DNA of 33,633 bases, taken from the IMG/VR virus record IMGVR_UViG_3300042541_000142, positions 1-33,633 of that record, one strand, 5' to 3'. The notes below the pieces were generated by a model that worked only from the letters and a program-made list of their open reading frames with translations, was not told the origin of the DNA and searched no databases. This stretch comes from a virus. Below are positions 4,855 to 19,699 of the stretch, piece after piece; the first letter of the stretch is position 1; the number at the start of each line of letters is the position of its first letter. The position numbers were made by a program, and so were the translations under genes.

Positions 4855-4866
4855 GGAGATGTAAAA

Positions 4867-5046
4867 ATGGCAACGAAATTTACTAAAGGTCAGAACGTAA
4901 AAGTTCAAACAACCGTCCCTCAAGGTCCAGTACAAGCACTGCGTATGACTGAAGATGGGGATTTCTTCTACAACGTAGAGTGGACTGATGCTGATGGCGT
5001 TAAGCAAAACCGCTGGTTCCCAGAAGCTGCTCTGACCGAAGCGTAA
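4867..5046 (+). CDS. 59-residue SH3/KOW-like small protein
   Basis: A frame of 59 codons plus TAA, with AAGGAG 8 bases before its ATG. The product alternates charged and hydrophobic residues (FTKGQNVKVQTTVPQGPV; FFYNVEWTDADGVKQNRWF) in the manner of a small SH3-like beta barrel: a G-Q-x-V-x-V start, an acidic hairpin and an R-W-F-P-E-A-A-L end. Similar small barrels accompany tail genes in many phages. The next gene starts with GTG one base after its stop. Function unknown. Confidence 0.75.
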   Translation: MATKFTKGQNVKVQTTVPQGPVQALRMTEDGDFFYNVEWTDADGVKQNRWFPEAALTEA

Positions 5047-5047
5047 T

Positions 5048-5917
5048 GTGTTTGGAATCTCATCATTTGCGGCTGCGCCGTTTGCGTCACTAGCAGGAGC
5101 TTTTCTAAACTCTGAAGTTAGTGAGTCAGCCTCTGCGTCAGATTCTATTAACGGATCTCGTCAAGTTGATGCGGCGTTAATTGAGCTTGCTTTTGCAACA
5201 GATACGATAGCAGCAGGGGCTACCTTCAACTCAGCTCTATCTGATTCTGCTACAGCTTCTGACCAAGTGTCTGCAATTCAAGCGTTTGCTTCTGCCATAC
5301 AAGAGTCTGCTACCGCAGAAGATCAGGTTTCCTCGTCAGTAGAAGTAAACAGCGTTATCTTAGAGTCAGTAACTGGCGCTGATGTAGTGGCTGCTCTAGC
5401 TGAGATGAACTCTGCTGTTATAGAGGCTGGCACTGCTTCTGATGTTATAGCTACTCAAGCCACATTTGGAGTTTCTGTAATAGAGCAGGTAACAGCATCT
5501 GACCAAGTATTGTCAGCGGGGACGTTTGCAGTCAACGTACAAGAGAATGCTACAGGGGCTGACCAAGTAAACGCGGTTCATAGCATCAGTAGTCTAGTAC
5601 AAGAGTCTGCCACTGCATCTGAGGTTGCAGGGGCGTTAGTCTACCTGAATAGCTTTATTAACGAAGGTGCCACTGCCTCTGATGCTGTTGAGAGCATGGC
5701 AGAGTTTCATTCAAGCATACAGGAGCTAATTAACGCTTCTGAAAGCACTAGAACAGCCGCTAGTTTTCTGGCCTCAATTAATGAACTTGCTCAGGCTTCA
5801 GATCTGCTTGCCGGTAGGTCACTCTGGGAGGTAATTAATACCTCAGAATCCACCACTTGGAGTACAATAAATACATCAAGCACAACTGGTTGGCAAGTGA
5901 TTAAAACTCAACCATAA
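5048..5917 (+). CDS. Repeat-built fibre protein (12 x 20-residue units)
   Basis: A 289-residue protein starting with GTG at 5048, one base after the previous stop; no ATG offers a better start because the hydrophobic N-terminus (FAAAPFASLAGAFL) reads continuously from it. Residues 21-261 are twelve degenerate units of 20 (one of 21) residues, each with the core E-S-A-T-A-S-D-x-V. Fixed period, alternating small residues and a conserved Asp suggest a beta-solenoid or trimeric fibre shaft. The last 30 residues switch to an 11-residue Trp repeat (W260, W271, W282). No enzyme domain. It is probably a slender appendage or tail decoration; binding partner unknown. Confidence 0.75.
   Translation: MFGISSFAAAPFASLAGAFLNSEVSESASASDSINGSRQVDAALIELAFATDTIAAGATFNSALSDSATASDQVSAIQAFASAIQESATAEDQVSSSVEVNSVILESVTGADVVAALAEMNSAVIEAGTASDVIATQATFGVSVIEQVTASDQVLSAGTFAVNVQENATGADQVNAVHSISSLVQESATASEVAGALVYLNSFINEGATASDAVESMAEFHSSIQELINASESTRTAASFLASINELAQASDLLAGRSLWEVINTSESTTWSTINTSSTTGWQVIKTQP
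5108..5830 (+). repeat. Twelve tandem ~60-bp units encoding 20-residue repeats
   Basis: The units are strongly diverged in DNA but keep their length and the E-x-A-T-A-S-D core in protein. Unit boundaries by residue of the fibre: 21, 41, 62, 82, 102, 122, 142, 162, 182, 202, 222, 242, the last ending at 261. Confidence 0.8.
5825..5914 (+). repeat. 11-residue tryptophan repeat at fibre C-terminus
   Basis: Trp residues at 260, 271 and 282 of the fibre are spaced exactly 11 apart, with INTSESTT and INTSSTTG between them and VIKTQP after the last. Short Trp/Thr repeats of this type end other phage appendage proteins. Confidence 0.65.
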
Positions 5918-5926
5918 TAGGGACAT

Positions 5927-8347
5927 ATGGCACTCATCTTAGCTGACAGAGTAAAAGAGACTTCCACCACTGCAGGTAATGGCACATTTACGCTTGCTGG
6001 AGCTGCCGCTGGTTTTCAATCCTTTGCTGTAGTTGGCGATGGAAATACCACCTACTACTGTATCGCAGGACAAGGGACTAATGAGTGGGAAGTAGGCATT
6101 GGAACCTATACGTCTTCCGGTACTACACTAGCTCGTACTACAGTTCTATCTAACAGTTCAGCAACAGAGCCAACAGCTTTAGTATTTGCCGCTGGGACAA
6201 AGGACGTATTTGTTACATACCCTTCAGAGAAGTCAGTCAATCTGGACGCATCAGGTAATGCAACCGCATTGGGTACGCCAGTAGCCTTTACAGGTACAAA
6301 CATAACTGGCACTGCAGCAGGTCTTACAGCAGGAGCCGCAACGGTATTAGCTACGGCAAGGAACATTGCAGGTGTGTCTTTTGATGGCTCTGCTGCTATA
6401 TCAATACCGTTAGAGAATCTATCTGATGTATCAATTGGCACTGCGGTGGTTAATGAGTTGCTTGGATATAACGGCACGGCTTGGGTTAATGTCCCGCCAA
6501 ACTCGGCATCAGCCGGGATAGGGGTTGTGTTTTATAACGCCACTCCAGTCATAACTGCGGCGGGAGCTAACAACGATGTAGCTCTTCTTACCTTTGCATC
6601 CATCCCAGTAACAACAGCAGAGCAGGTCATTACAGGAACAGCAGTTAGTAACACGGTGCTTTTCTCTGCTTTTATCACTGTTGCGCTAAATAGACTTCTA
6701 TTTGATGCCGGGATATATGACTTCACAATATGGGCTGGTGTAGACAGCATTGCTGGTGGCTCTGTTACAACCATTACTAGACAGATATATACAGCTACTC
6801 CGTTTGTTGTTGGCACTGTAACTACCACGGGGACAGGATCAAGCCGCACAGCTACAGCATCATCAGGAACGCCCTTTGCTACTTCGGTGATAGATGCTTC
6901 TGCTACAAATACAACTGCATCATACTTACAGACCCCTCAAGGTCTATACCAGATAACAGCTAGAACTTCTGACACGGTAGTAACTATTACCACGCCTAGT
7001 GGGTATACCAATGAGTCGGCAGTTGCTGGCACTGCATGGAAAAAACTGTTTGGAGTTACTACTCCAGCAATAACGTCTATATCTCCTAACTACTCTGAAT
7101 TAAGTATATATACAACTCAGCCATCAACGGTAGTTACTGCCGCAACAAAGATGGGTATTCTTGGGTTTGTTACTTCAGACGCTACTAGGACTATATCGCT
7201 GACCTACAACGGCGAAGATAGAAATACCCACGTTAATACGCCTCTGGCTAATCTACACAATGACTTGGCTGGGTTACAGGGCGGAGCTGCTACAGAGTAT
7301 TTCCACTCCACCTCTGCTGAATACACGGGAACAGGTACTGGAGTCTTTGTAAGGGCAACGTCTCCTACCCTAGTAACCCCAGATCTGGGCACTCCAAGTG
7401 CGTTAGTAGGCACTAACATAACCGGCACAGCTACAGCCTTTACAGCTAGTAACGTGACAACCAATGCTAACCTAACGGGCGAAGCCACCTCTGTAGGCAA
7501 CGCAGCCACCCTAACCAACTCAGCGGTTATAGGTAAGGTCTTAACTGGATACACATCAGGGGCAGGTACAGTAGCGGCTACAGATACTATTCTTCAGGCA
7601 ATAGAGAAGTTAAATGGAAATACTGCGGCAGTTCCCGGTACAGTAACTTCAGTCTCAGTAGTAACCAATAATGGCTTTGCTGGCACTGTAGCTACGGCTA
7701 CATCTACTCCGGCTATAACCTTAACAACAACAGTAACAGGCATGCTGAAGGGTAGTAATGTATCTGGGATTGTAAGTGCTGGAACAAGCGGCACTGATTA
7801 CTCTGATGGTACTTCAGCTCTAGCTACCGGCATATTAAAGAGTACAACTACAACTGGCGCATTAACTATAGCAGTAGCGGCAACAGATTATGTGGCTCCA
7901 AGCGCATATGCTTCAGCTAACGGTCTTACAATGGCTACAGCTAGGCTACTGGGCAGGACTACAGCATCAACAGGGGCGGCAGAGGAAATCACAGTAGGAA
8001 CTGGGCTGTCTTTAGCCACAGGAACTTTGTCATCAACAGCAACCTCAGCATCTCTGTCTAATGATACAGCTACAGCTTCTTATATATATCCAGTCTTTGC
8101 CACTGGAACAACCGGTGTAATAGCAAATCTATATACATCTGATGCCAAGCTACTATACAAGCCATCAACAGGCGAATTGGCAGTAACTGCGCCTATAGCC
8201 GCTAATGGGTTAGTGCTTAACGCAAATACTGTAGCAACAAGTTATACTATTGAATCTGGATTTAATGCTTCCTCAGTGGGTCCGATAACTGTGAGCGGTG
8301 GCGTTGTGGTTACGATTACATCAGGGCAGCGTTGGGTTGTCTTATAA
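5927..8347 (+). CDS. Long tail fibre protein
   Basis: An 806-residue protein. Residues 1-105 form a recognisable attachment domain (start MALILADRVKETSTT, then GFQSFAVVGDGNTTYY, TTLARTTVL and KDVFVTYPSEKSV) found at the front of many phage fibres. The middle holds repeated Thr/Ala/Gly motifs such as LGTP.A..GTNITGTA (near 120-130 and again near 490), typical of trimeric shafts. The last 35 residues (SYTIESGFNASSVGPITVSG and following) form a short terminal module that recurs in the 61-residue protein at 12062. No depolymerase or peptidase motif is visible. Likely adhesin or shaft of a main fibre; receptor unknown. Confidence 0.85.
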   Translation: MALILADRVKETSTTAGNGTFTLAGAAAGFQSFAVVGDGNTTYYCIAGQGTNEWEVGIGTYTSSGTTLARTTVLSNSSATEPTALVFAAGTKDVFVTYPSEKSVNLDASGNATALGTPVAFTGTNITGTAAGLTAGAATVLATARNIAGVSFDGSAAISIPLENLSDVSIGTAVVNELLGYNGTAWVNVPPNSASAGIGVVFYNATPVITAAGANNDVALLTFASIPVTTAEQVITGTAVSNTVLFSAFITVALNRLLFDAGIYDFTIWAGVDSIAGGSVTTITRQIYTATPFVVGTVTTTGTGSSRTATASSGTPFATSVIDASATNTTASYLQTPQGLYQITARTSDTVVTITTPSGYTNESAVAGTAWKKLFGVTTPAITSISPNYSELSIYTTQPSTVVTAATKMGILGFVTSDATRTISLTYNGEDRNTHVNTPLANLHNDLAGLQGGAATEYFHSTSAEYTGTGTGVFVRATSPTLVTPDLGTPSALVGTNITGTATAFTASNVTTNANLTGEATSVGNAATLTNSAVIGKVLTGYTSGAGTVAATDTILQAIEKLNGNTAAVPGTVTSVSVVTNNGFAGTVATATSTPAITLTTTVTGMLKGSNVSGIVSAGTSGTDYSDGTSALATGILKSTTTTGALTIAVAATDYVAPSAYASANGLTMATARLLGRTTASTGAAEEITVGTGLSLATGTLSSTATSASLSNDTATASYIYPVFATGTTGVIANLYTSDAKLLYKPSTGELAVTAPIAANGLVLNANTVATSYTIESGFNASSVGPITVSGGVVVTITSGQRWVVL

Positions 8348-8361
8348 CTAAAGGATAAATC

Positions 8362-9441
8362 ATGGCAAGTAGTTACTCAGCACTTAAGATAGAACTTATT
8401 GCTACAGGCGAACAGGTAAATGTTTGGGGGTCTACAACTAATACAAATCTTGGTACTGCGTTAGAAGAAGCTATTGTAGGTAGGGCTGTAGCTAGTTTTA
8501 CTACTGATGGTAACCTGACTATAGATCTTACCAATACTAACTCAACGCAAGTAGCTAGGCACTACATACTAAGTTTAACCTCAACTGGGGCGCTAACGGC
8601 TACTAGAGATCTGATAGTTCCCACAACTGATAAACCTTACATAATTGAGAACAACACTACTGGCTCACAAAGTATCCGGGTAAAGACCGCCGCTGGCACG
8701 GGGATAACAGTACCTAATGGTAAGACGGCTATGGTTTACGCCAATAGCACGAATGTAGTTTCAGCTCTTAGTTATGTTCCAGCTCTAAGTATAGACACAG
8801 CAACAATTGCGGCGGGAACAGCTATATTTTCTACGGCTACTATAACTACAGCAACAATCAACGGTGGAACGATTACAGGCATTACTGATCTGGCTGTAGC
8901 TGATGGGGGCACGGGGCTTTCTACACTAACTGCAAATAACGTAATTTTAGGCAACGGTGCTTCTGCCCCTACATTTGTTGCCCCCAGTACTTCAGGAAAC
9001 TTATTAACGTCTAACGGAACAACTTGGGCGAGTACCGCACCAGTTACGCCAGCCCCACCATTTGCTTCTGGTACACGCATGAGTTTTCAGCAAACAGCCG
9101 CTCCTACTGGGTGGACTAAAGATACCACTGCTGCAATTGATGATTCTATTCTTAGGTTTGTTACTGGGTCAGTTACCCCAAGCGGTGGTTCTGTAGCATT
9201 TAGTACATGGAACGCACAGACGGTTACTGGTGGCACTGCTATAACAACAGCCCAGATGCCAGCACACACGCACGGATATACAGAATATAGTACCTCGGGC
9301 GCAGCGGGAGCGTCATCGGGTCGCTTTGTATCATCCCCATTCACCCAACAAACGCAGTCAACAGGCAGTGGCGGAAGCCACACCCACCCGCTTACCCAAA
9401 ATATAAAATTCTACGACTTCATTATTGCAGCTAAAGACTAA
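8362..9441 (+). CDS. Tail fibre with C-terminal collar domain (HxH motifs)
   Basis: A 359-residue protein with RBS AAAGGATAA before its ATG. Residues 1-140 form a widespread fibre N-terminus (SSYSALKIELIATGEQVNVW, GTTNTNLGTALEEAI-like). Residues 160-230 are a Thr/Ala shaft with the GGTGLSTLT and GNLLTSNGTTW motifs. The C-terminal 120 residues are a tail-collar type domain: GTRMSFQQTAAPTGWTKD, then MPAHTHGY (H302, H304) and GGSHTHPL (H340, H342), ending IKFYDFIIAAKD. In T4 gp12 such HxH motifs bind metal along the trimer axis. It is probably a receptor-binding short fibre; its stop overlaps the next ATG. Confidence 0.85.
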   Translation: MASSYSALKIELIATGEQVNVWGSTTNTNLGTALEEAIVGRAVASFTTDGNLTIDLTNTNSTQVARHYILSLTSTGALTATRDLIVPTTDKPYIIENNTTGSQSIRVKTAAGTGITVPNGKTAMVYANSTNVVSALSYVPALSIDTATIAAGTAIFSTATITTATINGGTITGITDLAVADGGTGLSTLTANNVILGNGASAPTFVAPSTSGNLLTSNGTTWASTAPVTPAPPFASGTRMSFQQTAAPTGWTKDTTAAIDDSILRFVTGSVTPSGGSVAFSTWNAQTVTGGTAITTAQMPAHTHGYTEYSTSGAAGASSGRFVSSPFTQQTQSTGSGGSHTHPLTQNIKFYDFIIAAKD

Positions 9442-9780: not shown

Positions 9781-10725
9781 ATGGCTTCAACTATTGCGGC
9801 AGTGACAACGGGGGGTGGGGGTGTAATCACCACAGCAGACTCTAGTGGAAATCTCTCATTACTCTCAGGTGTGAATACGGTTGTTGCTGTGACCAGCGCG
9901 GGTGTGGCTGTAACTGGTACTCTGAGTGCTACGGGTGCAGTGTCAGGCACTACAGGGACGTTTACTTCTGGTGTTGCGGCTACGTCCCTAACAAACAAGA
10001 TTCAGCCAATCACTGCTTCTGTTGCTGCTAGTGCGTTAACGATTACTCTGAATCCTACGATACTAGACTTTAGAGCATCTCCACTAACAAGCGGAACAGT
10101 AACGACTATCGCTGTACCTGCTGCAATCTCAGTGGTTATCCCAAGTACCTCAACAATGGGTACTGTATCTGCTGTTCAGTCTCGCATTGTAGTAATCGCA
10201 ATCAATAATGCTGGTACTGTTGAACTGGCAGCGGTCAATATCTCTGGTGGCTCTGTACTGGATGAGACTACTCTGATTACTACTACAGCAGCAGCCGCCG
10301 CTGGTAACTCAGCAACAGCGTATTACTCAACAACTGCTAGAACTGGTGTGGCTTACCGTGTTGTAGGTTATGTTGAAAGCACGCAGGCAACTGCTGGAAC
10401 ATGGGCAACTGCTCCAAGCACACTACAAGGTTACGGTGGTCAAGCATTGGCTGCTATGAGTAGTTTGGGATATGGGCAGACTTGGCAAGCGGTTACACGC
10501 ACAGCCTCTACAACTTACTACAACACAACGGGCAAACCTATAACTGCACAAGTAGCTTGCGGTAACGCAGTATCAGGCAGTTTTAATCCAGTCATCAATG
10601 GTATTGGTTTTGGTACAGCGACATCCCCAGCTGGGGTTGGTCAAATCGTAACCCTTTTACTGCCTCCCGGTTGCTCATATAGTTGGACTGGCACAGGTTC
10701 AGCTTCTTGGTCAGAACTCCGTTAA
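9781..10725 (+). CDS. Short tail fibre 1 of the fibre array
   Basis: A 314-residue fibre preceded by AAGGAGATATAA. The N-terminal 70 residues are Gly/Thr/Val-rich (GVAVTGTLSATGAVSGTTGT), a typical fibre shaft with NLSLLSG at the start. Residues 75-240 form a beta-rich middle with Ala and Thr runs, and the C-terminal part (YGQTWQAVTRTASTTYYNT; GKPITAQVACGN; a final GTGSASWSELR) resembles receptor-binding heads with the AGVGQIVTLLLPPGCSY motif seen in other phage fibres. It is followed at once by a chaperone-like gene, forming the first fibre/chaperone pair of the array. Confidence 0.8.
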   Translation: MASTIAAVTTGGGGVITTADSSGNLSLLSGVNTVVAVTSAGVAVTGTLSATGAVSGTTGTFTSGVAATSLTNKIQPITASVAASALTITLNPTILDFRASPLTSGTVTTIAVPAAISVVIPSTSTMGTVSAVQSRIVVIAINNAGTVELAAVNISGGSVLDETTLITTTAAAAAGNSATAYYSTTARTGVAYRVVGYVESTQATAGTWATAPSTLQGYGGQALAAMSSLGYGQTWQAVTRTASTTYYNTTGKPITAQVACGNAVSGSFNPVINGIGFGTATSPAGVGQIVTLLLPPGCSYSWTGTGSASWSELR

Positions 10726-10738
10726 AAAGGAAAATAAA

Positions 10739-11008
10739 ATGAACTATAAAGACTTAGAAAACAACTTACACTTCCTTGATAGCACAGAGTTCGAGCATCT
10801 CTTACCTGTTGGTTGCGTACAGATTACAGATGATGAAGCAGAGACTATTAGACTATCGAAGGTAGTACCACCAACCTACTCTGAGCTACGCGCTGCTGCC
10901 TATCCACCAATAGTAGACCAGCTAGACACCATCTTTCACGGTGGTCTTGATGCTTGGAAAGCTGAGATACAGGCCACTAAGAATAAGTATCCTAAGGAGG
11001 TAGCATGA
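10739..11008 (+). CDS. Tail fibre assembly chaperone-like protein 1
   Basis: An 89-residue acidic protein with AAAGGAAAATAAA before its ATG. The C-terminal pattern E-L-R-A-A-A-Y-P-P-I-V-D-Q-L-D, then FHGGLDAWKAEIQATKNKYPK is a very common phage motif on small proteins encoded after fibres, generally taken as fibre assembly chaperones. Its stop overlaps the start of the next fibre (ATGA), and AAGGAGG at its 3' end supplies the RBS for that fibre. Direct partner is presumably the fibre upstream at 9781, by analogy with fibre/chaperone pairs. Confidence 0.75.
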   Translation: MNYKDLENNLHFLDSTEFEHLLPVGCVQITDDEAETIRLSKVVPPTYSELRAAAYPPIVDQLDTIFHGGLDAWKAEIQATKNKYPKEVA

Positions 11009-11682
11009 GTTCAATCGTTGTCGCAGGGGACGTTTCTGGCGCCATTACAATAGCTGCTCCAGCCGTTGCAGGCTCTGGAACACTAACTCTACCAGTTGCT
11101 ACCGACACCCTAGTGGGGAAGGCCACGACTGATACGTTAACGAATAAGAGCATAGCAGCTACTCAGTTAACAGGAACTATTGCAGCAGCTAGGCTACCAG
11201 CGGGGAGTGTGTTACAGGTGGTGAGTACAGCTAAGACAGATACATTCAGCCTAGCAGCAACCACAACATTCACTGATGTTACTGGTCTGACTGTAACGAC
11301 TGCCGCACTCAGGTCAACGGCAAGCAGGGTTTTCATAAGTGTGGCACTTGGCAGGGTCAGCCACTCAGCCGTAGGAACGTATTCGATTGCATTCAGGCTT
11401 ATGCGCGGAGCAACGGTGATCGCTGTTGCCGATGCTGCTGGCTCTAGGCCCAGAGCTAGTTTTGCGACAACTTCAGCTACAGACACTAATCACTCATTGG
11501 GAGCATCGTTTTCGTGGGTAGACTCACCTTCTTCAACTTCCGCTGAGACATATAAACTACAAATGACCGTTCAAGCGGCTGGAACTGGCTACATTAATCG
11601 TACTGGCGGTGACTCTGATGGCGCAGAGGTTTACCAGTCTCGCGCAGCATCTTCTATAACAGTAATGGAGATACAGGGATGA
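11005..11682 (+). CDS. Short tail fibre 2 of the array
   Basis: A 225-residue fibre starting in an ATGA overlap behind AAGGAGG. The N-terminal 55 residues are adaptor/shaft (GAITIAAPAVAGSGTLTLP; TDTLTNKSIAATQL). At residue 65 a head domain begins with ARLPAGSVLQVV, a motif shared with fibres at 12257 and 13184, and continues as a beta-sandwich with FRLMRGATVI, SFSWVDSPSSTSAETYKLQM and a final SSITVMEIQG. This LPAG..LQV head is widespread in phages. The stop overlaps the next gene's ATG. It is likely one of several alternative or co-displayed receptor binders. Confidence 0.8.
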   Translation: MSSIVVAGDVSGAITIAAPAVAGSGTLTLPVATDTLVGKATTDTLTNKSIAATQLTGTIAAARLPAGSVLQVVSTAKTDTFSLAATTTFTDVTGLTVTTAALRSTASRVFISVALGRVSHSAVGTYSIAFRLMRGATVIAVADAAGSRPRASFATTSATDTNHSLGASFSWVDSPSSTSAETYKLQMTVQAAGTGYINRTGGDSDGAEVYQSRAASSITVMEIQG

Positions 11683-12062
11683 TAGACTATACTAAAATAC
11701 TTTCACTCAACTATCCTAGCACTCAGTGGGCGCTCAACGGTGATTCCTACGAAGGTTTAGACTGGTACGACTCCACTCCAAAGCCAACACAAGCTGAACT
11801 TGATGCTCTCTGGATACCTACACAAGAAGCCGATAGTAAGTCTGCTAACAAAGCCACTGCATCATCACTACTAGCTGGCACTGACTGGACAACCATAGCA
11901 GACATAGGGCTACCAACAGCTAATCCTAGGCTATCCAATCAGGATCAGTTCATTGCTTATCGCCAAGTGATTCGTCAGATTGCTGTCTACCCACCTGCTG
12001 GTGAAGTGGTCTGGCCTACACCGCCAACAGAAGTTTGGGCTGCACCAGAAGGAGCTAAATAA
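11679..12062 (+). CDS. XkdW-like tail fibre chaperone 2
   Basis: A 127-residue protein in ATGA overlap with fibre 2. The start ILSLNYPSTQWALNGDSYEG, then LDWYDSTPKPTQAELDALW follows the XkdW-type pattern (Y-P-x-x-x-W near the front, then W-x-x-x-x-x-K-P-T-x-x-E-L), and the rest carries TDWTTIADIGLPTANPRL and IRQIAVYPPAG, common on phage fibre-associated small proteins. It is acidic and soluble. I read it as the assembly chaperone of fibre 2; it differs from the KYPK-type chaperones at 10739 and 12910. Its TAA overlaps the next ATG. Confidence 0.75.
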   Translation: MIDYTKILSLNYPSTQWALNGDSYEGLDWYDSTPKPTQAELDALWIPTQEADSKSANKATASSLLAGTDWTTIADIGLPTANPRLSNQDQFIAYRQVIRQIAVYPPAGEVVWPTPPTEVWAAPEGAK

Positions 12063-12247
12063 TGGCAACAGTTATTAACGGCGATACGGCAGGGGTTCAT
12101 ACCAGTGCTGCAGTTGAATGTCTCCAGCTTATTACTACAAACTACACTATCTCTAGTGGGTACAACGCTGGGTTTTTTGGTCCAGTAACAGTGGACACTG
12201 GGGTAAGTATTGTAATCCCAGATGGTGCAACGCTAACCGTAGTGTAA
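12062..12247 (+). CDS. 61-residue mini-fibre / cap module
   Basis: A short protein starting at a TAATG junction. Its C-terminal 35 residues (YTISSGYNAGFFGPVTVDTG and following, ending TLTVV) align by eye with the last 35 residues of the 806-residue fibre at 5927 (SYTIESGFNASSVGPITVSG, ending WVVL). This pattern, N-A-x-x-x-G-P-V-x-V-x-x-G-V-x-V, closes many phage fibres. Here it stands almost alone, with only about 25 residues before it. It could be a free-standing trimeric cap, or the remains of a longer fibre. RBS support is weak, so coupling to the upstream gene is likely. Confidence 0.6.
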   Translation: MATVINGDTAGVHTSAAVECLQLITTNYTISSGYNAGFFGPVTVDTGVSIVIPDGATLTVV

Positions 12248-12256
12248 GGAGTTTAT

Positions 12257-12913
12257 ATGGCAGGTAAGATTACAACGAACTCAGTAGTGCTAGGTGATAG
12301 CGCAACGGATACACAGAATTTTATACTGAAGACAAATGTAGATGGCACAGCGACCTTAGCTCGTGGCGCTGCAGGTACTTTAGGAACAGTGTTTGGCGTG
12401 AATGGTAGCAGTGCTATTACAGGTGCTACATTGGTTGCCCCAGCTTTAGGAACACCAGCAAGTGGAGTGCTGACTAACTGTACTGGAGTGCCAGCAGCAG
12501 CATTGCCAGCGGGAACAGTTTTACAGGTGGTTAATGCTACTTATTCAACGACTGCTACTAATTCAACAGCTTCTTATGCTGATACAGGGTTAACTGCAAC
12601 CATAACTCCAACTAGAAATACTAGTAAAATATTAGTCATTGTTAATCAAAATGGAGTAAGCGGCAATTCAGCTACTACTGGAGTAAATCTTCAATTATTA
12701 AGAGGAGTATCCTCAATTTCAATATTTGGTGTTGCTAATGCGTATGGAGTTACCTCTAGTAATATAACGGTGTCTTGTAATTATTTAGACTCTCCTGCAA
12801 CAACGTCTGCAACAACATATAAAACGCAATTTGTAAGATATGCCGGATCAACTGTGACTGTTCAAGGTAGCGGCGATATGTCCACAATCACACTAATGGA
12901 GATAGCGGTATGA
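12257..12913 (+). CDS. Short tail fibre 3 of the array
   Basis: A 218-residue fibre with AAGGAG 7 bases before its ATG. The N-terminal 80 residues form a shaft (VVLGDSATDTQNFILKTNVD; APALGTPASGVLTNCTGVP). At residue 88 the head domain opens with LPAGTVLQVVNATYST and continues NTSKILVIVNQNGVSG, LQLLRGVSSIS and SCNYLDSPATTSATTYKTQF, ending STITLMEIAV, parallel to fibre 2. The head-coding DNA is clearly more AT-rich than its surroundings (about 34% GC by hand count over 12541-12840), which suggests that it was acquired separately. It ends in an ATGA overlap with a chaperone-like gene. Confidence 0.8.
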   Translation: MAGKITTNSVVLGDSATDTQNFILKTNVDGTATLARGAAGTLGTVFGVNGSSAITGATLVAPALGTPASGVLTNCTGVPAAALPAGTVLQVVNATYSTTATNSTASYADTGLTATITPTRNTSKILVIVNQNGVSGNSATTGVNLQLLRGVSSISIFGVANAYGVTSSNITVSCNYLDSPATTSATTYKTQFVRYAGSTVTVQGSGDMSTITLMEIAV

Positions 12914-13182
12914 ACAACTTCATTTCAGCACTATACAAACTCTACCCTCAGACTGTTCGCACTATGGGCGATGATGCCTTTGATGTTGATGGCAATCCAG
13001 TTATCTATGACAAAGCACTTATACAAGCTGAACTAGATCGTACTGCATACATTGATCTTCGTGTTGCTGAATACCCAGACTTTAAACTGTACCTTGATGG
13101 TGTAGTCAAGGGTGACCAAGTGCAGATCCAGTCATACATTGATTCTTGCCTAGCGGTCAAAGCAAAATATCCAAAGGAATAA
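12910..13182 (+). CDS. Tail fibre assembly chaperone-like protein 3
   Basis: A 90-residue protein starting in ATGA overlap with fibre 3. Its front, ISALYKLYPQTVRTMGDDAF, and a middle I-Y-D-K-A-L-I-Q-A-E are chaperone-like, and the end RVAEYPDFKLYLDGVVKGD plus CLAVKAKYPKE carries the KYPK-type signature shared with the protein at 10739. It is acidic and without membrane segment. The position directly after fibre 3 fits a dedicated folding partner. The next fibre begins two bases after its stop. Confidence 0.75.
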   Translation: MNNFISALYKLYPQTVRTMGDDAFDVDGNPVIYDKALIQAELDRTAYIDLRVAEYPDFKLYLDGVVKGDQVQIQSYIDSCLAVKAKYPKE

Positions 13183-13183
13183 C

Positions 13184-13798
13184 ATGACAATAACACTTAG
13201 AGCTGGGGTAGTAAGTTCGGGTATCCAACAGAATGGTACTGAGTTCCTCACAGTTGATTCATCAAACAATGTCTCACTAACTAATAACTTGGCTGTAACT
13301 GGGACGCTGACTGCTACGGGTAAATTGGCTGCATCATCATTGCCAGCAGGATGTGTTTTACAGGTTAAGAACTTTCAAACCGGGACTTATGCAACTGGCA
13401 CAACCTTGCTTCCTTTTGATAATACTATTCCACAAATTACAGAGGGCAATCAATATTTATCTTTGGCAATTACCCCAATCAGCGCAACAAGTAAACTGTT
13501 AATTCAAGTCAATATAGTTATGTCATCATCTGTTCTAAGTTTTTGCACCGCTGCATTGTTCCAAGACTCAACAGCAAATGCAATTGCCGCTAGCACTGCC
13601 TACGCTCCTGTGGCTACTGGAATCGTGATAACTTCTTTCAATTATTTTATGACAAGTGGAACAACATCATCCACAACCTTTACTGTTAGAGCTGGTACAA
13701 ATAATGCTGGTACAACTACCATTAATGGACAAAGCGGGGGTCAGTCTTTTGGCGGGGTATGCTCCTCCTCAATCACAATCACGGAGATAGCAGCATGA
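13184..13798 (+). CDS. Short tail fibre 4 of the array (no chaperone gene after it)
   Basis: A 204-residue fibre whose ATG is preceded by CAAAGGAATAAC. The N-terminal 45 residues are shaft (VDSSNNVSLTNNLAVTGTL), and the head begins at residue 52 with LPAGCVLQVKNFQTGTYATG, continuing SATSKLLIQVNIVMSSS, SFNYFMTSGTTSSTTFTVRA and the end SSITITEIAA, the same layout as fibres 2 and 3. The head DNA is again AT-rich. Unlike the others, no chaperone follows: the stop sits in an ATGATTAAC string that still looks like a chaperone start but runs out after nine codons. Confidence 0.8.
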   Translation: MTITLRAGVVSSGIQQNGTEFLTVDSSNNVSLTNNLAVTGTLTATGKLAASSLPAGCVLQVKNFQTGTYATGTTLLPFDNTIPQITEGNQYLSLAITPISATSKLLIQVNIVMSSSVLSFCTAALFQDSTANAIAASTAYAPVATGIVITSFNYFMTSGTTSSTTFTVRAGTNNAGTTTINGQSGGQSFGGVCSSSITITEIAA

Positions 13799-13814
13799 TT
13801 AACAGGAGAATAAT

Positions 13815-14378
13815 ATGCCTATAACTCTAAGCGGTACAACTGGCATCACTACACCTGCTATAGCAGATACAGGAACACTTTCTGTCACTGGAGTAACAAC
13901 GCTGACTGGTGGACTAAACGCTGCTCTGCCAGTATTGAGTGGCGGCACAGGAGTTACTACTTCTACTGGTACTGGCGCTAATGTGTTGGGGACTTCGCCT
14001 ACTCTAGCCACACCTACATTCGACTCTGCTCAACTACCCACAATCTCTGGTACTGCGCCGCTTTATATGTGTCGTGCTTGGGTAAACTTCAACGGCACTG
14101 GTACTGTGGCTATTCGTGCTAGTGGGAACGTGAGTAGTATTACTGATAGAGGCGTCGGGCGCTACACGGTGAACTTTACGACTGCTATGGTGGATGTGAA
14201 TTATTCAACAAGTACTGGTGTTAGAAAACTGGACACAAACGAAGACAATAATATGGTAATTACTTTGGGCGCAACTACTACTGCTTATTCAACAACGGCA
14301 GTTGCTCTAACAACAGGCTTTGCAACCTCAGCTAGTAATCAAGATGCTGAACTTGCGTGCGTTGCCGTCTTTCGCTAA
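13815..14378 (+). CDS. Short tail fibre 5 of the array
   Basis: A 187-residue fibre with AGGAGAATAAT before its ATG. The first 75 residues are shaft (GTTGITTPAIADTGTLSVTG; VLSGGTGVTTSTGTGANVLG). The head differs from fibres 2-4: it begins LYMCRAWVNFNGTGTVAIRA, followed by GNVSSITDRGVGRYTVNFTT and ends AELACVAVFR. That A-W-V-N-F-N-G-T-G head is one of the most widespread small fibre domains of phages. It is followed by the 14391/14573 gene pair, which take the chaperone position. Confidence 0.85.
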   Translation: MPITLSGTTGITTPAIADTGTLSVTGVTTLTGGLNAALPVLSGGTGVTTSTGTGANVLGTSPTLATPTFDSAQLPTISGTAPLYMCRAWVNFNGTGTVAIRASGNVSSITDRGVGRYTVNFTTAMVDVNYSTSTGVRKLDTNEDNNMVITLGATTTAYSTTAVALTTGFATSASNQDAELACVAVFR

Positions 14379-14390
14379 AAGGACACCAAA

Positions 14391-14582
14391 ATGAAAAGAA
14401 TAATTTATAAGAAACCTGATGGCGGTGTAGCAGTTCTAGTCCCATCACCAGAATACCTACAAGATCACACTATTGAGGAACTTGCTGCCAAAGATGTACC
14501 GGCAAATACTCCGTTTGAGATTGTAGATACCGACACAGTACCAACAGACCGCACATTCAGAGGAGCATGGACATGGGCATAA
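14391..14582 (+). CDS. Fibre-associated conserved small protein
   Basis: A 63-residue protein with AAAAGGACACC before its ATG. The pattern IIYKKPDGGVAVLVPSPEY, then T-I-E-E-L-A-A-K-D-V-P and the end PTDRTFRGAWTW matches a very common small protein found after the A-W-V-N-F-N-G-T-G type fibre in many phages, probably a fibre assembly factor. In some phages it seems to be joined to the domain encoded here by the next gene. It overlaps the next gene by 10 bases. Confidence 0.8.
   Translation: MKRIIYKKPDGGVAVLVPSPEYLQDHTIEELAAKDVPANTPFEIVDTDTVPTDRTFRGAWTWA
14561..14565 (+). promoter_or_regulatory. Shine-Dalgarno that decides the start at 14573
   Basis: AGGAG lies one base before an ATG at 14567 but seven bases before the ATG at 14573. 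Only the second spacing is workable, so the next gene most likely starts at 14573. Confidence 0.6.
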
Positions 14583-14797
14583 TCATTGACCTAGCCAAAG
14601 CACAAGGAATCACAAAAGAGCGACTTCGTGCAGAACGCGCTCCATTGCTAACAGCATTAGACGTACAGTACCAACGCGCTCAAGAAGATGGCAGAGATAC
14701 CACAATCATCATCAGTGAGAAACAAAGACTGCGTGACGTTACTAAACTAGCAGATAAGGCTACAACGCTGGATGAACTGAAGGCGCTATCGGCATGA
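14573..14797 (+). CDS. Small helical fibre-associated protein
   Basis: A 74-residue protein from the ATG at 14573 (an ATG two codons upstream has impossible RBS spacing). It is helical and charged: IDLAKAQGITKERLRAERAP, then LDVQYQRAQEDGRD and LADKATTLDELKAL. The I-D-L-x-K-A-x-x-I-x-x-x-x-x-R-x-x-R-x-x-x-L start and the ATTLDELKAL end are recognised from proteins that accompany or are joined to the fibre-associated protein encoded just upstream. Likely part of fibre assembly; exact role not known. Its stop overlaps the next ATG. Confidence 0.75.
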   Translation: MGIIIDLAKAQGITKERLRAERAPLLTALDVQYQRAQEDGRDTTIIISEKQRLRDVTKLADKATTLDELKALSA

Positions 14798-14913
14798 CCT
14801 TTGAACAGTGGTTTGATTCTTTGGAGGGTGGATACGACAGCTATAAAGACCTTCTGCAAGAGGCTTACGAGGCTGGAGCAGAAGAATCATCTAAGAAAAA
14901 ATTAGAGGAATAG
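14794..14913 (+). CDS. 39-residue acidic mini-protein
   Basis: A frame of 39 codons plus TAG, starting in an ATGA overlap with the upstream gene. The product MTFEQWFDSLEGGYDSYKDL, then an acidic/Lys helix, has the M-T-F-x-x-W-F start of many tiny phage proteins. Its stop is one base before the next ATG. Without a strong RBS it relies on coupling. Function unknown. Confidence 0.6.
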   Translation: MTFEQWFDSLEGGYDSYKDLLQEAYEAGAEESSKKKLEE

Positions 14914-14914
14914 C

Positions 14915-15073
14915 ATGACCATTAAAGACAAAGCTAAGAAGGTAGTGGGCAAGGTTGATGAGGTTATTGCTATAGCTGATCCAGTATCAGACAGATTCCT
15001 TGAGCTGATTAAGAACTCTAAGCGCACTACGCTAGTAGTAGTTATAATTGCGTTTATTATCTGGCTAATCTAA
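14915..15073 (+). CDS. 52-residue tail-anchored membrane protein
   Basis: A frame of 52 codons plus TAA, starting one base after the previous stop behind TTAGAGGAA. The first 37 residues are helical and charged (KDKAKKVVGKVDEVIAIADP), and residues 38-52 form a hydrophobic helix (TTLVVVIIAFIIWLI) that reaches the C-terminus. That is a tail-anchored topology. Position at the beginning of the lysis block suggests a holin-like or other membrane-acting protein, but the segment is short and no family is recognised. Confidence 0.65.
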   Translation: MTIKDKAKKVVGKVDEVIAIADPVSDRFLELIKNSKRTTLVVVIIAFIIWLI

Positions 15074-15083
15074 ATGAAACAAG

Positions 15084-15296
15084 ATGGACGATTCAGATAA
15101 GGCTTCGGAGTACGAGGATCTGTTTAGAGAGTCTGCGATAGCGTTTCGTAAGGCTTCACCAAAGCTAACCGGGATGTGCCTCAACTGCGGGGTAAAAACT
15201 AAGGGTGCCTACTGTTCTCCTGATTGCAGGGAAGATTGGGAACGAATTCAACGAATGAAACGTATAGGACGCAAACATGACGAACGAAGAAATTGA
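15084..15296 (+). CDS. Small C4 zinc-finger protein
   Basis: A 70-residue protein with cysteines C32, C35, C44 and C48 in the order C-x2-C-x8-C-x3-C (MCLNCGVKTKGAYCSPDCRED), flanked by charged helices (KASEYEDLFRESAIAF; QRMKRIGRKHDERR). Small proteins with this finger are frequent in podovirus-like genomes next to lysis genes; they recall DksA-type or DUF2116-like fingers, though no activity is established for this one. It overlaps the next gene by 20 bases. Confidence 0.75.
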   Translation: MDDSDKASEYEDLFRESAIAFRKASPKLTGMCLNCGVKTKGAYCSPDCREDWERIQRMKRIGRKHDERRN

Positions 15297-15504
15297 CGCT
15301 GTGGCCTTAAGACTATGCTCCATGATTCGGGAGCACCGTAAGGATTTCTGGATTGAACCGGAAGAACACTACAACGACCACAAAGAGTTATCTGAGCTCG
15401 TTAAAGATTGGAAAGATGCTAAGACTATATTCTGGAAAGCCTTCATTGGGCTTGCAGTTATTGGGAGTATAGCTCTAGCTGCAGTTGGCTTAGGACATAA
15501 GTGA
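15277..15504 (+). CDS. Single-TM membrane protein of the lysis block
   Basis: A 75-residue protein starting inside the zinc-finger gene. The first 50 residues are soluble (AVALRLCSMIREHRKDFWIE; HYNDHKELSELVKDWKD), then one membrane helix lies at about 54-72 (KAFIGLAVIGSIALAAVGLG). The E-H-x-x-F-W-x-E-P-E-x-H-Y pattern is seen on phage proteins encoded just before the endolysin. A holin partner or antiholin role is plausible from place and topology but not shown. Its stop overlaps the GTG of the next gene. Confidence 0.75.
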   Translation: MTNEEIDAVALRLCSMIREHRKDFWIEPEEHYNDHKELSELVKDWKDAKTIFWKAFIGLAVIGSIALAAVGLGHK

Positions 15505-15689
15505 AAAAGGCCCGTAGGTCTAAGACGCTCTGGTGGAACGGGGCATTAATCTTAGCTCTTGGGCTTCTTGAACTTGCTGCACAGGCATTTTCCACAGTCT
15601 TGCCACCCATAGCCTACGCTGGCTTGATATTTGTTAGTAGTGCGGGCAACATGGTGCTTAGATTCTTTACGAGTGAGCCGATCCAATGA
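15501..15689 (+). CDS. Holin-like protein, two membrane segments
   Basis: A 62-residue protein starting with GTG in a GTGA overlap. A basic N-terminus (KKARRSKTLWWN) is followed by two hydrophobic segments at about 11-30 (ALILALGLLELAAQ) and 34-55 (PPIAYAGLIFVSSAGNMVLR), ending RFFTSEPIQ. The S-K-T-x-W-x-N start and the L-R-F-x-T-x-x-P-I end are typical of small phage holin-type proteins (DUF7940-like, as I recall). It lies directly before the endolysin, whose ATG overlaps its stop, which supports the holin reading. Confidence 0.75.
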   Translation: MKKARRSKTLWWNGALILALGLLELAAQAFSTVLPPIAYAGLIFVSSAGNMVLRFFTSEPIQ

Positions 15690-16096
15690 TAACCCTGCAG
15701 GAATACTTCAACGATAAGCCACAGACCACAGAATACAATCTGAACGCCCTGACATTGCTGTACAGGGTTAATAACCTATTAGCCGCATTTGCTACGGATA
15801 CTGGAACAATACTACAAAACAACCCAGCTACTGGCAATCAGATCTCAGGCAACAAGAATGGCGATGGGGGGTTTAGACTGCAGACCTCCACTACAGGGTC
15901 ATCTAAGTCTGCTCATAAGCAAGGGATGGCTGTAGATATTTACGACCGTGGTGAGCACCTAGATAAGTGGCTGGATGCAAAGCCTGACGCATTGATTAAG
16001 TATGACCTGTACAGAGAAGAACCCAGCGCGACTATAAACTGGTGCCATCTTGGGACTAGGAAGCCGCTGTCCGGCAAGAGAACTTTCAAGCCGTGA
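15686..16096 (+). CDS. M15-type peptidase endolysin
   Basis: A 136-residue protein in ATGA overlap with the holin-like gene. The peptidase M15 arrangement is visible: GFRLQTSTTG, S-S-K-S-A-H77-K-Q-G-M-A-V-D84-I-Y for the first zinc ligands, E111/E112 (LYREE) as catalytic candidate, and W119-C-H121-L-G for the third ligand. Enzymes of this class cut the peptide bridges of peptidoglycan (D,D- or L,D-peptidase type). There is no signal sequence, so release depends on the holin. The whole protein is the catalytic domain, as usual for phages of Gram-negative hosts. Family level call is firm, exact bond cleaved is not. Confidence 0.85.
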   Translation: MITLQEYFNDKPQTTEYNLNALTLLYRVNNLLAAFATDTGTILQNNPATGNQISGNKNGDGGFRLQTSTTGSSKSAHKQGMAVDIYDRGEHLDKWLDAKPDALIKYDLYREEPSATINWCHLGTRKPLSGKRTFKP

Positions 16097-16590
16097 TACC
16101 CTTTATAGCAGGGGCGAAGGCTTTATCTCTCAGTACTAAAATTGCTATCGCTACAACGCTTGCTGCTGCATTGTTTTCTTTCGGGTTATACGTTGGTCAC
16201 AAATGGGGAGTAAGTAGCTGCTATGAGGCTACAATCGAGGCGCAGAGGCATACCATTGAGACAGGGGTCAAACAGGCTGTGGTTTCAGACAAAACGATCA
16301 CGCAGTATGTGGATCGAGTACAAATTGTGCAAGGAAAGAGCAGAGAGATAATTAAAGAGGTTAAAGTTTATGTACAAGATACTGGTACTTTGTCTAGTGG
16401 TTTCAGGGTGTGGCACGACAGCGCCATCTACAATGAACTTCCCGACCCCACCAGAATTATTGATGCGTCCACCGTTGCAGTTGAAACCGTTGCCGAAACC
16501 ATTGGAGCAAATTACGGTATCTGCCACCAGAACAAAGAAACTCTCACAGCCCTCCAAGACTGGGTTAGAGAGCAATCGGTAATTAGATAA
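16093..16590 (+). CDS. Inner-membrane spanin (Rz-like)
   Basis: A 165-residue protein starting with GTG in a GTGA overlap with the endolysin. One membrane helix lies at about 15-36 (KIAIATTLAAALFSFGLYVG), followed by a long charged helix likely to form a coiled coil (residues 45-95, including KSREIIKEVKVYV), a short Pro-containing turn, and the end YGICHQNKETLTALQDWV. This is the topology and end of Rz-type i-spanins, which link to an outer-membrane lipoprotein and fuse the two membranes at lysis. The partner Rz1 is nested inside this gene in another frame, the classical arrangement. Confidence 0.85.
   Translation: MIPFIAGAKALSLSTKIAIATTLAAALFSFGLYVGHKWGVSSCYEATIEAQRHTIETGVKQAVVSDKTITQYVDRVQIVQGKSREIIKEVKVYVQDTGTLSSGFRVWHDSAIYNELPDPTRIIDASTVAVETVAETIGANYGICHQNKETLTALQDWVREQSVIR
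16370..16582 (+). CDS. Outer-membrane spanin lipoprotein (Rz1-like), nested in Rz
   Basis: A 70-residue frame wholly inside the Rz-like gene, read in another frame. It starts MYKILVLCLVVSGC: a lipoprotein signal peptide with lipobox V-S-G-C14, so lipidation at Cys14. The mature 57 residues are Pro-rich (TMNFPTPPELLMRPP; LQLKPLPKPLEQ), as o-spanins are. AGAGG lies about 10 bases before the ATG. Length, lipobox, prolines and embedding all match Rz1. Mature protein would sit in the inner leaflet of the outer membrane and contact the Rz-like coiled coil. Confidence 0.85.
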   Translation: MYKILVLCLVVSGCGTTAPSTMNFPTPPELLMRPPLQLKPLPKPLEQITVSATRTKKLSQPSKTGLESNR

Positions 16591-16595
16591 GTAGT

Positions 16596-16615
16596 TATAC
16601 ACGTTTTGGTGTATA
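16596..16615 (+). promoter_or_regulatory. Perfect 7-bp hairpin in the gap before the nozzle gene
   Basis: TATACAC, a 6-base loop GTTTTG, then GTGTATA. No T-run follows on either strand, so it is a poor intrinsic terminator; it could be an operator, an RNA processing site or a weak attenuator. Confidence 0.4.
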
Positions 16616-16635
16616 GACGGGTATAGGTGAGTATA
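16611..16635 (+). promoter_or_regulatory. Three GTATA direct repeats at 10-base spacing, possible promoter region
   Basis: GTATA begins at 16611, 16621 and 16631, exactly one helical turn apart. The third gives TATAAA, an acceptable -10 element, but the best -35 candidate (TTGGTG at 16606) is 20 bases away, longer than ideal. This is one of only two noticeable gaps in the + strand gene block, so a promoter for the nozzle and core genes would fit here. Confidence 0.35.
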
Positions 16636-16657
16636 AAGTACCCATTAAGGAACCCAT

Positions 16658-18730
16658 ATGCTTAAGAAAATCCAACTAAAGCCCGGAATAAACCGGGATC
16701 AAACTAACTACTCGGGTGAGGGTGGCTGGTTTCAATGCGATAAGATACGTTTTCGTTCTGGATACCCAGAGAAAGTAGGCGGTTGGCTAAAGGCTTCACC
16801 AAGTTCTTTCATTGGAGTGTGCCGCCAGATGTGGGGGTGGATTACTTCGTACAACGATGACCTACTTGCACTAGGAACTAACGCCAAGGTATACATTGAG
16901 GCAGGGGCAAACTTCTATGACATAACCCCACTAAGTGGGACCTTTATTTCTCCTGATACCGATAACTGTTTTAGAACCGGGTTTGTGGGTAATGGGAGTA
17001 TTACCGGTGCTGTGCTAACTGTAACTACGGCTACTTACGGGCACTTGACTATAGGCACAGTAATATCTGGTAGTGGGATTGCTGCTAATACGACTATAAC
17101 CGCCTACGGTACAGGCGAAGGAGAACTTGGTACTTATACAGTAACACCTACGCAGACTGTGGGGTCTGTGGCTATCACAGGGGTATCTACTACCGTTACA
17201 GTAACTATAGCTGCAAATGGCGCTGGCCTAGGGGATTACGTAACTTTCTCTGGGGCTACTGCAGTAGGTGGAGTACCTGCGGGTGATCTAAATATTGAGC
17301 ATGTAGTAACGGAAGTAATATCAAGTAACGAGTTCACTATAGTTGTGGCTACAGTAGCTACATCGTCTGCTGCAGGTGGGGGTACAGGTATTACTGCGGA
17401 ATTCCAGATAAATATAGGCTATGTCATTAGAACCGCAGGGTATGGATATGGGGCGGGTGCTTGGGCGCGTAATGGGTGGGGGGCAGGTTCAGCAGTCCCT
17501 GTATTTTTTGCCCAGAGAGACTGGTGGTTTGATAACTTCGACAACGACCTAGTAATGAATATACGTAATGGGGCTATTTACTACTGGGAACGGGGCACTG
17601 CTCCTGAGCCAGAATTTACGACTAGGGCGGTGCTTCTTTCTAGTTTATCCGGGGCAAACGCAGTACCTGCTATAGCGATGCAGGTTATTTTGTCTCAGCA
17701 AGATCGTCACTTATTAGCTTTTGGGTGCACACCGTTTGGGGGTGGCACTGCAGATCCCCTGCTTATACGCTGGTCAGACCAGAATGATCCTGTTGAATGG
17801 GAACCAATGGTTACTAACTCTGCGGGGTTTCTACGTGTGTCTCGTGGGTCTAGAATTGTACGCGCACTAGCTACAAGGCAGGAAGTATTAGTATGGACCG
17901 ACTCTAATCTATACACACTACAGTTCTTAGGCACTGCGGATGTATTTGGTATACAGGAGTATGCGGATAATATTTCTATTATTTCAGGTCGTGCAGTTAT
18001 CTCTGCAAGTAATGTTACTTACTGGATGGGGCAGGATAAGTTTTATGCTTACTCTGGACGGGTTGAGACACTACCTTGCACACTGCGTAACCATGTCTTT
18101 CAAAACCTAAACTACGACCAAGCCCCACAAATTATCGCAGGCACTAACGAAGGGTTCCATGAAGTATGGTGGTTCTACCCAAGCGCTACTAGCGACACTA
18201 ATGATAGTTACGTGATCTACAACTACCTTGAACAGATCTGGTACTACGGCACTATAGAGCGTACTGCTTGGAACGATAGCCCACTAAGGACTTACCCACA
18301 GGCGGCGGAATACGATTCTGATCTAGGGATAAGCTACTTGTACAGCCATGAAAATGGGGTTGATGATGGGGTGGTGGGGATGGAAGCGTATATCCAGTCA
18401 AACGACATAGACATAGATGACGGTGATAAGTTCATGCTAACCAAGCGGATCATACCTGACGTTAATTTTAATGGGTCTGATAGGACTGCAAACCCAACGC
18501 CTACTGCAGTATTAACTATACTACCACGCAGTTTCCCGGGGGCTCCATACACTGAAGAGGCTTCAGACGCCCAACAAGTTATTAGTACCGCAGTGGACGA
18601 GTATACAAACCAAGTGTTTATCCGTGCCCGTGCAAGGCAGATGGCGATAAAGATAAGCTCTACTGATATAGGGGTTAAGTGGCAGATAGGTAGCCCCCGT
18701 GTTGATGCTAGGCCAAGCGGGAGAAGATAA
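16658..18730 (+). CDS. Tail nozzle / packaged DNA stabilization protein (P22 gp10-like)
   Basis: A 690-residue protein with TTAAGGAACCCAT before its ATG. The start LKPGINRDQTNYSGEGGWFQ, R-F-R-S-G-Y-P-E-K-V-G-G-W and the repeated W-S-D-x-x-D-P-x-x-W (residues about 370-385) are hallmarks of the P22 gp10 / podovirus nozzle family, which closes the tail channel below the adaptor ring. Further family-like strings: LVWTDSNLYTLQF, GQDKFYAYSGRVETLPCTLR, VWWFYPSATSDTNDSYVIYN. Residues 108-175 hold an inserted Gly/Thr beta module that recurs in the next protein, and a second beta module (GDYVTFSGATAVGG) follows near 197-210. No catalytic motif. The stop overlaps the next start. Confidence 0.85.
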   Translation: MLKKIQLKPGINRDQTNYSGEGGWFQCDKIRFRSGYPEKVGGWLKASPSSFIGVCRQMWGWITSYNDDLLALGTNAKVYIEAGANFYDITPLSGTFISPDTDNCFRTGFVGNGSITGAVLTVTTATYGHLTIGTVISGSGIAANTTITAYGTGEGELGTYTVTPTQTVGSVAITGVSTTVTVTIAANGAGLGDYVTFSGATAVGGVPAGDLNIEHVVTEVISSNEFTIVVATVATSSAAGGGTGITAEFQINIGYVIRTAGYGYGAGAWARNGWGAGSAVPVFFAQRDWWFDNFDNDLVMNIRNGAIYYWERGTAPEPEFTTRAVLLSSLSGANAVPAIAMQVILSQQDRHLLAFGCTPFGGGTADPLLIRWSDQNDPVEWEPMVTNSAGFLRVSRGSRIVRALATRQEVLVWTDSNLYTLQFLGTADVFGIQEYADNISIISGRAVISASNVTYWMGQDKFYAYSGRVETLPCTLRNHVFQNLNYDQAPQIIAGTNEGFHEVWWFYPSATSDTNDSYVIYNYLEQIWYYGTIERTAWNDSPLRTYPQAAEYDSDLGISYLYSHENGVDDGVVGMEAYIQSNDIDIDDGDKFMLTKRIIPDVNFNGSDRTANPTPTAVLTILPRSFPGAPYTEEASDAQQVISTAVDEYTNQVFIRARARQMAIKISSTDIGVKWQIGSPRVDARPSGRR
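16979..17182 (+). repeat. Inserted beta module, copy A (in nozzle protein)
   Basis: Residues 108-175 of the nozzle protein: NGSITGAVLTVTT near the start and GTYTVTPTQTVGS plus ITG near the end. The same pattern occurs in the neighbouring protein at 19084-19281. Similarity is at protein level; the DNA has diverged. Confidence 0.65.
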
Positions 18731-19659: not shown

Positions 19660-19699
19660 TTCACTATACATACGCAAGAAACTTAAGGATAATGCCACT

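Follow-up and report, generated by a model that had tools for sequence, protein, structure and literature searches.

In the myocyanophage Pam3, a short fibre with a TNF-like domain (gp24) is served by a two-domain chaperone (gp25), the variable N-terminal domain of which binds the TNF-like distal part of the fibre while a separate, conserved helical C-terminal domain trimerises (PMC9608196). Besides such two-domain fibre chaperones, the shuffling of fibre domains, in which a near-identical N terminus is joined to unrelated C-terminal receptor-binding domains (PMC10684548), is already known, as is the transfer of modules composed of a fibre and its cognate chaperone, which are common to distant phages such as the Alteromonas phages A5 and V22 (PMC10579305). 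Work on marine metaviromic islands describes, in the sections cited here, hypervariable C1q-like receptor-binding proteins that recur among the most variable genes together with tail fibres, XkdW and fibre assembly proteins (PMC3909814), and the cultured Methylophilales phage MEP402 (OP830907) carries two short fibres with TNF-type tips, each followed by a gene for ∼90 amino acids (aa). Here we analyse an array of short fibre genes and small helper genes in the IMG/VR virus record IMGVR_UViG_3300042541_000142, the full 33,633 nucleotides (nt) of which form the window referred to throughout (the record may be a fragment). We find that fibre tips in this array are exchanged between phages as one unit with the 5′ half of the adjacent helper gene.

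The locus differs from each of these systems. Where Pam3 has a single fibre of this kind, which ends in a glycine-rich domain, the window has three tips in one array, and no glycine-rich distal stretch is found in the fibres that we number 2–4, which end with a predicted jelly roll at the motif ITxxEI. The N-terminal half of the helper appears to be XkdW-like, a further difference from Pam3; the co-variation described below would fit a fibre-specific N-terminal domain of the gp25 kind, and Pam3 provides a mechanical precedent for a helper N-half that recognises the tip. MEP402 has fewer fibres, another genome backbone and helper genes annotated as hypothetical. In A5 and V22 it is whole modules that move, and fibre and chaperone have another fold, while in comparison with the domain shuffling of receptor-binding proteins the unit described here crosses a gene boundary and takes half of the neighbouring helper gene. 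The metaviromic work scored under-recruiting genes and, in the sections cited, defines neither a unit of tip plus half-chaperone nor multi-tip arrays. As far as the cited literature shows, the novelty lies in the array with several tips and in a recurrent unit of exchange that divides a helper gene into halves.

An exchange unit that crosses a gene boundary

Fibres 2, 3 and 4 have in common the motif LPAG.VLQV and the ending ITxxEI, as a preliminary description of this DNA had noted. That description took LPAG.VLQV to open a shared head, a reading that we reject: the motif lies at residues 55–85 and opens a C-terminal domain, and it is this domain that the three fibres share. When the proteins are split at LPAG, their C-terminal parts (tips) are 32–40% identical and homologous (z 8.6–15 against shuffles), whereas the N-terminal parts (heads) show no likeness (z −0.5 to 0.8). 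In the DNA each of the three tips is bracketed by two direct repeats, D1 (three copies of 40 nt, at 11180, 12489 and 13326), encoding LPAG.VLQV, and D3 (three copies of 38 nt, at 11650, 12881 and 13766), encoding ITxxEI with the stop and start of the next gene.

The extent of the exchanged unit emerges from comparison with relatives, designated here by L-numbers, which are uncultured metagenome fragments, several of them retrieved with fibre 2 as bait, so that counts among them are not frequencies. Between the window and L002 there are 50 mismatches in 11001–11196, none in the 640 base pairs (bp) from 11197 to 11836, and many again thereafter; this identical tract runs from LPAG of fibre 2 to codon 52 of the following helper gene, C2, and is a recent transfer. 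The clean tract shared with L003 is 569 bp long, a length reached in none of 2,000 shuffles (longest 108). Identity to these two relatives is 82% in the head, 100% in the tip, 99–100% in the helper N-half and 86–87% in the helper C-half. The left edge is also sharp in 32 pairs (from 22 genes) that have like heads and unlike tips, where identity is ∼0.9 up to LPAG and then 0.78 at SVLQ, 0.62 at VVST and 0.37 at AKTD, the fall being complete within 12 codons of LPAG, and climbs back to 0.77 at ITVMEI.

Co-variation delimits the same unit. Among 37 fibres with related heads, the distances between tips correlate with those between helper N-halves (rho 0.52; 0/500 permutations) but not with those between heads (rho −0.04; 338/500), whereas head distances track the helper C-half (rho 0.36; 0/500) rather than the N-half (rho 0.08). 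Natural recombinants are also seen, L020 and L021 joining a fibre-4-type tip to heads of the fibre-2 type, alongside a helper of the C2 type. These data demonstrate that the exchange unit is the tip plus the first ∼45–52 codons of the next gene, which encode an XkdW-like domain. Since codon identity at LPAG is not above that elsewhere in 609 divergent pairs, a purely DNA-level recombination site is unsupported, and we prefer to see in the LPAG joint a conserved boundary between domains that tolerates crossovers.

Predicted folds of tips and helper

Structures were predicted for single chains, that of fibre 3 from a tip alignment of 38 sequences (A1). The AlphaFold2 model of fibre 3 has a jelly roll from residue 85 to the end, with a predicted local distance difference test score (pLDDT) of 87–98 over most of it, and a poorly predicted head. 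The closest solved folds to this tip are the Photorhabdus TNF-like lectin PLTL (Z 14.6, root-mean-square deviation (rmsd) 2.0), the C-terminal domain of chlamydial Pgp3 (Z 14.0) and the N-terminal domain of the Burkholderia lectin BC2L-C (Z 14.0), the next group of folds lying at Z 11. Although these three superpose well (Z about 14, rmsd 2.0–2.6), they are not phage fibres and are only 11–18% identical to the tip in sequence. Fibre 4 alone of the fibres passes the cut-off for the Pgp3 C-terminal domain (PF05475, 26.2 bits against 25), which matches 6 of the 38 aligned tips at an E value of 0.01. Moreover, the tip-family profile matches the C terminus of the solved 18-chain protein orf22 (9efk; E value 3.5e-21), in a region that takes in the DSPATTSA and STIT..EI motifs. 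We therefore assign the tips of fibres 2–4, with high confidence, to a TNF/C1q-type jelly roll, as modelled for fibre 3 and as predicted by homology for fibres 2 and 4. By analogy with TNF-like lectins, the tips probably trimerise and bind surface glycans.

The small genes had been described as chaperones of at least three types. For C2 a chaperone role is supported: the protein matches tail fibre assembly PHROGs and its C-half falls just below the cut-off for Phage_tail_APC (PF16778; 23.4 bits against 26.6), the best aligned relative reaching an E value of 1.2e-17. The C2 N-half scores 17.5 bits against XkdW (PF09636), below the cut-off of 24.6. Its model is compact, superposes on solved XkdW (2hg7) at 53 of 60 residues (a modest Z of 5.1, with 28% identity and rmsd 2.2) and ends near the right edge of the exchanged tract. 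A Foldseek search with C2 gave no significant match, and neither Pam3 gp25 nor Mu Tfa is among its structural matches. For the genes at 10739, 12910, 14391 and 14567 a chaperone role is not supported, those at 10739 and 12910 matching PHROGs of unknown function. Two N-half types and two C-half types occur in all four combinations, and the chaperone types arise partly through recombination of two half-gene modules.

Cassette turnover and layout of the array

Similarity to relatives drops abruptly within the array, beside flanks that are up to 98% identical. L082 is 97.8% identical to the window over 14914–18878 yet has different fibres upstream; L086 is ∼95% identical over 14912–16972, where its fragment ends at the array; and L007 is 86.6% identical over 4952–8780 and then diverges. 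Among relatives that cover both flanks, compared by identity in the gene at 4276, L267, L285, L290, L295, L297 and L305 (87–92% identical) have one short fibre and L260 (94%) about four, against seven in the window. Comparison of close relatives for single cassettes, which the preliminary description had proposed as a check, thus reveals turnover. In the relatives inspected, a C2-type gene ends near ..GAAGTTTGG and within a few bases reaches AGGAGAATAATATG and the next gene, whereas in the window 12039–13803 separates the GAAGTTTGG piece from the AGGAGAATAATATG piece. Because the clean empty site of the relatives joins these flanking pieces, the block is an insertion relative to the usual order.

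Open reading frames of 187–314 aa are present at the fibre positions 9781, 11005, 12257, 13184 and 13815, and one of 61 aa at 12062; with the small genes at 10739, 11679, 12910, 14391 and 14567 they lie on one strand throughout, their ends overlapping or near-adjacent (Table 1). The five-fibre array first described therefore exists, but the run of fibres begins earlier. Since fibre-like genes continue upstream of 9781 (at 5927 and 8362), we count seven short fibre-type genes, the 61-aa one included, between 8362 and 14378. Nor do fibres and chaperones alternate strictly: small genes are interspersed, but fibre 4 has no chaperone directly downstream and is followed by fibre 5. The array had also been called unusual. 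Relatives and MEP402 likewise show short fibres in alternation with small genes, but seven fibre genes, three of them of one tip family, are the top of the range seen here. Another multi-fibre array is found in L013, where 4572–6126 encodes three further short proteins in tandem that match the C-terminal part of the fibre at 8362.

Table 1. Features of the fibre array and its upstream neighbour (window coordinates)
Feature	Position	Strand	Remarks
Long fibre-like protein, 806 aa, adjoining the array upstream	5927..8347	+	93–96% identity in L007, L073 and L250, with a differing array beside it
Short fibre, 359 aa	8362..9441	+	Counterpart is the sole short fibre of several relatives
Fibre 1, 314 aa	9781..10725	+	Variable C-terminal part behind a head conserved in relatives
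Small gene C1, 89 aa, presumed fibre partner	10739..11008	+	KYPK-type C-half; PHROG of unknown function
Fibre 2	11005..11682	+	Head 1–63, predicted TNF-lectin-like tip 64–225; tip DNA 100% identical in L002 and L003
LPAG.VLQVV joint of fibre 2	11194..11226	+	Repeat D1; left boundary of the exchange
Recent-transfer tract, 640 bp	11197..11836	+	Spans the fibre-2 tip and the chaperone N-half; 100% identical in L002 (for 569 bp in L003)
Chaperone C2, 127 aa	11679..12062	+	XkdW-like N-half (1–55), Phage_tail_APC-like C-half
Inserted block: mini-fibre, fibre 3, C3, fibre 4	12039..13803	+	Missing in relatives, whose C2 adjoins the next fibre
Mini-fibre, 61 aa	12062..12247	+	Full-length copy in L172, 85% identity
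Fibre 3	12257..12913	+	Head 1–80; TNF-lectin-like tip 85–218 (modelled)
Small gene C3, 90 aa	12910..13182	+	Own C-half KYPK-type; N-half found on APC-type C-halves in L013, L015, L016 and L019
Fibre 4	13184..13798	+	Head 1–54, predicted TNF-like tip 55–204; Pfam Pgp3 C-terminal domain match
Fibre 5, 187 aa	13815..14378	+	Tail fibre PHROG 11355; usual end of homology to relatives near 14205
C5a, 63 aa, conserved small gene	14391..14582	+	No PHROGs match
C5b, 76 aa, conserved	14567..14797	+	PHROG 20196 of unknown function; weak fibre-assembly match

The window appears to belong to an uncultured podovirus-like (short-tailed) phage of bacteria, since a P22-like stabilisation protein family at 16658, a DNA ejection protein at 22577, an endonuclease VII and an endolysin fit this assignment. 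Adjoining the array, 5048–5917 encodes a protein of ∼30-aa ASD/ES repeats, a second length-variable gene that ranges from 178 to 1501 aa through extra copies in L275, L267, L279, L285 and L297. The stabilisation protein (16658–18730) has one segment weakly similar to tail fibre and endosialidase barrel families, and may itself have been exchanged in part, because it is 65–68% identical overall to its counterparts in L086 and L085 when most neighbouring genes are 80–100% identical. Downstream of it, 19640–22161 holds an adhesin-like gene (short tail fibre and tail fibre adhesin PHROGs) and a gene for a 662-aa protein of weak fibre-like similarity. A 2041-aa protein with the Large polyvalent protein associated domain 39 (Pfam LPD39, 45.9 bits) is encoded at 25065–31190, its gene containing a 33-bp tandem repeat at 26640–26861 (staggered matches to L083). 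The record of Limnohabitans phage DC33 (L328; PQ492659.1) is filed under Inoviridae, possibly a taxonomy error, although the 39 kb genome has tailed-phage-type fibre and endolysin genes.

Origin of the array and its probable role in host recognition

We consider it likely that these are modular fibres in which the tip and the helper N-half are swapped as a unit and whole cassettes are gained and lost, the array being the host-recognition locus of a podovirus-like phage. The N-terminal head, which differs from fibre to fibre within the array, would attach each protein to the virion or to a second fibre. The helper behind each fibre would consist of two domains, an XkdW-like N-half that matches the tip and a C-half that acts as an exchangeable scaffold. 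Homologous recombination between phages of this group would replace tip and helper N-half together, the exchange being bounded by the LPAG.VLQV codons on one side and by the region of helper codon 45–52 on the other. The inserted block has enlarged the window genome by two further tips. The simplest account of such a unit is that the helper N-half recognises the tip, recombinants that retain both being the ones to survive.

Several points weigh against this interpretation. The relatives were chosen partly by similarity to fibre 2, which biases frequencies; the XkdW match is modest, both structurally and in its Pfam score; fibre 4 lacks an adjacent helper, fibres 1 and 5 carry tips of other kinds, and a lectin-like fold is not proof of sugar binding. 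Physical adjacency alone could also yield co-variation of tip and helper N-half, although the head lies equally near the tip and does not co-vary with it.

The array might instead be a store, from which one or two fibres are assembled into each virion while the others are spare or decaying copies. That some relatives manage with one short fibre, that fibre 4 stands without a helper and that the mini-fibre has only 61 aa would all be expected of a store; yet every reading frame is intact, close relatives of each tip occur elsewhere in unbroken genes, the mini-fibre is kept in L172 and, because the heads differ, there need be no competition between fibres for a single socket. We regard a store as rather unlikely on balance. 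Three unlike tips on three unlike heads make the multi-receptor system first proposed for this array plausible. More tentatively, at least three different lectin-tipped fibres may be mounted through different heads on one short-tailed virion, in a population that trades specificity as a fixed two-gene unit of tip and chaperone recognition half.

The tandem arrangement of one domain family with common motifs might suggest that the TNF-like fibres 2–4 are local duplicates that diverged in place. The tip tree disfavours this, although it is a quick tree with many weak forks: distances are 3.2–3.9 among the window tips and 0–0.9 to tips elsewhere. The heads, moreover, are unrelated and the tract common to L002 is 100% identical, which together make duplication in place very improbable. 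Least credible of all, and rejected here, is programmed variation by a dedicated enzyme that shuffles tips within one genome through their flanking repeats: D1 and D3 do bracket each tip in three copies and the edges of exchange are sharp, but the repeats are only 70–80% alike and encode protein motifs conserved across the tip family, the three tips are highly divergent, each lying closer to tips of other phages than to its neighbours, the reverse transcriptase, resolvase and integrase families (PF00078, PF00239, PF00589) are all absent from the record, which may be incomplete, the array flanks have no strong inverted repeats, promoter- and terminator-like sites are at chance level and no Rfam family matched.

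Because an invertase, an integrase and a reverse transcriptase are all missing from the record, which may be incomplete, we favour recombination between phages over a programmed switch. The exchangeable system suggested at the outset thus stands as exchange between phage lineages, which is strongly supported by the variation of tips, half-chaperones and whole cassettes in close relatives, and not as a switch within one genome.

In conclusion, many natural recombinants reveal a natural rule that specifies which portion of the chaperone travels with which portion of the fibre, and chaperone–fibre recognition thereby becomes directly testable. Exchange of tips would allow these viruses to change or add hosts rapidly, which would help to explain how aquatic phages track changing hosts.

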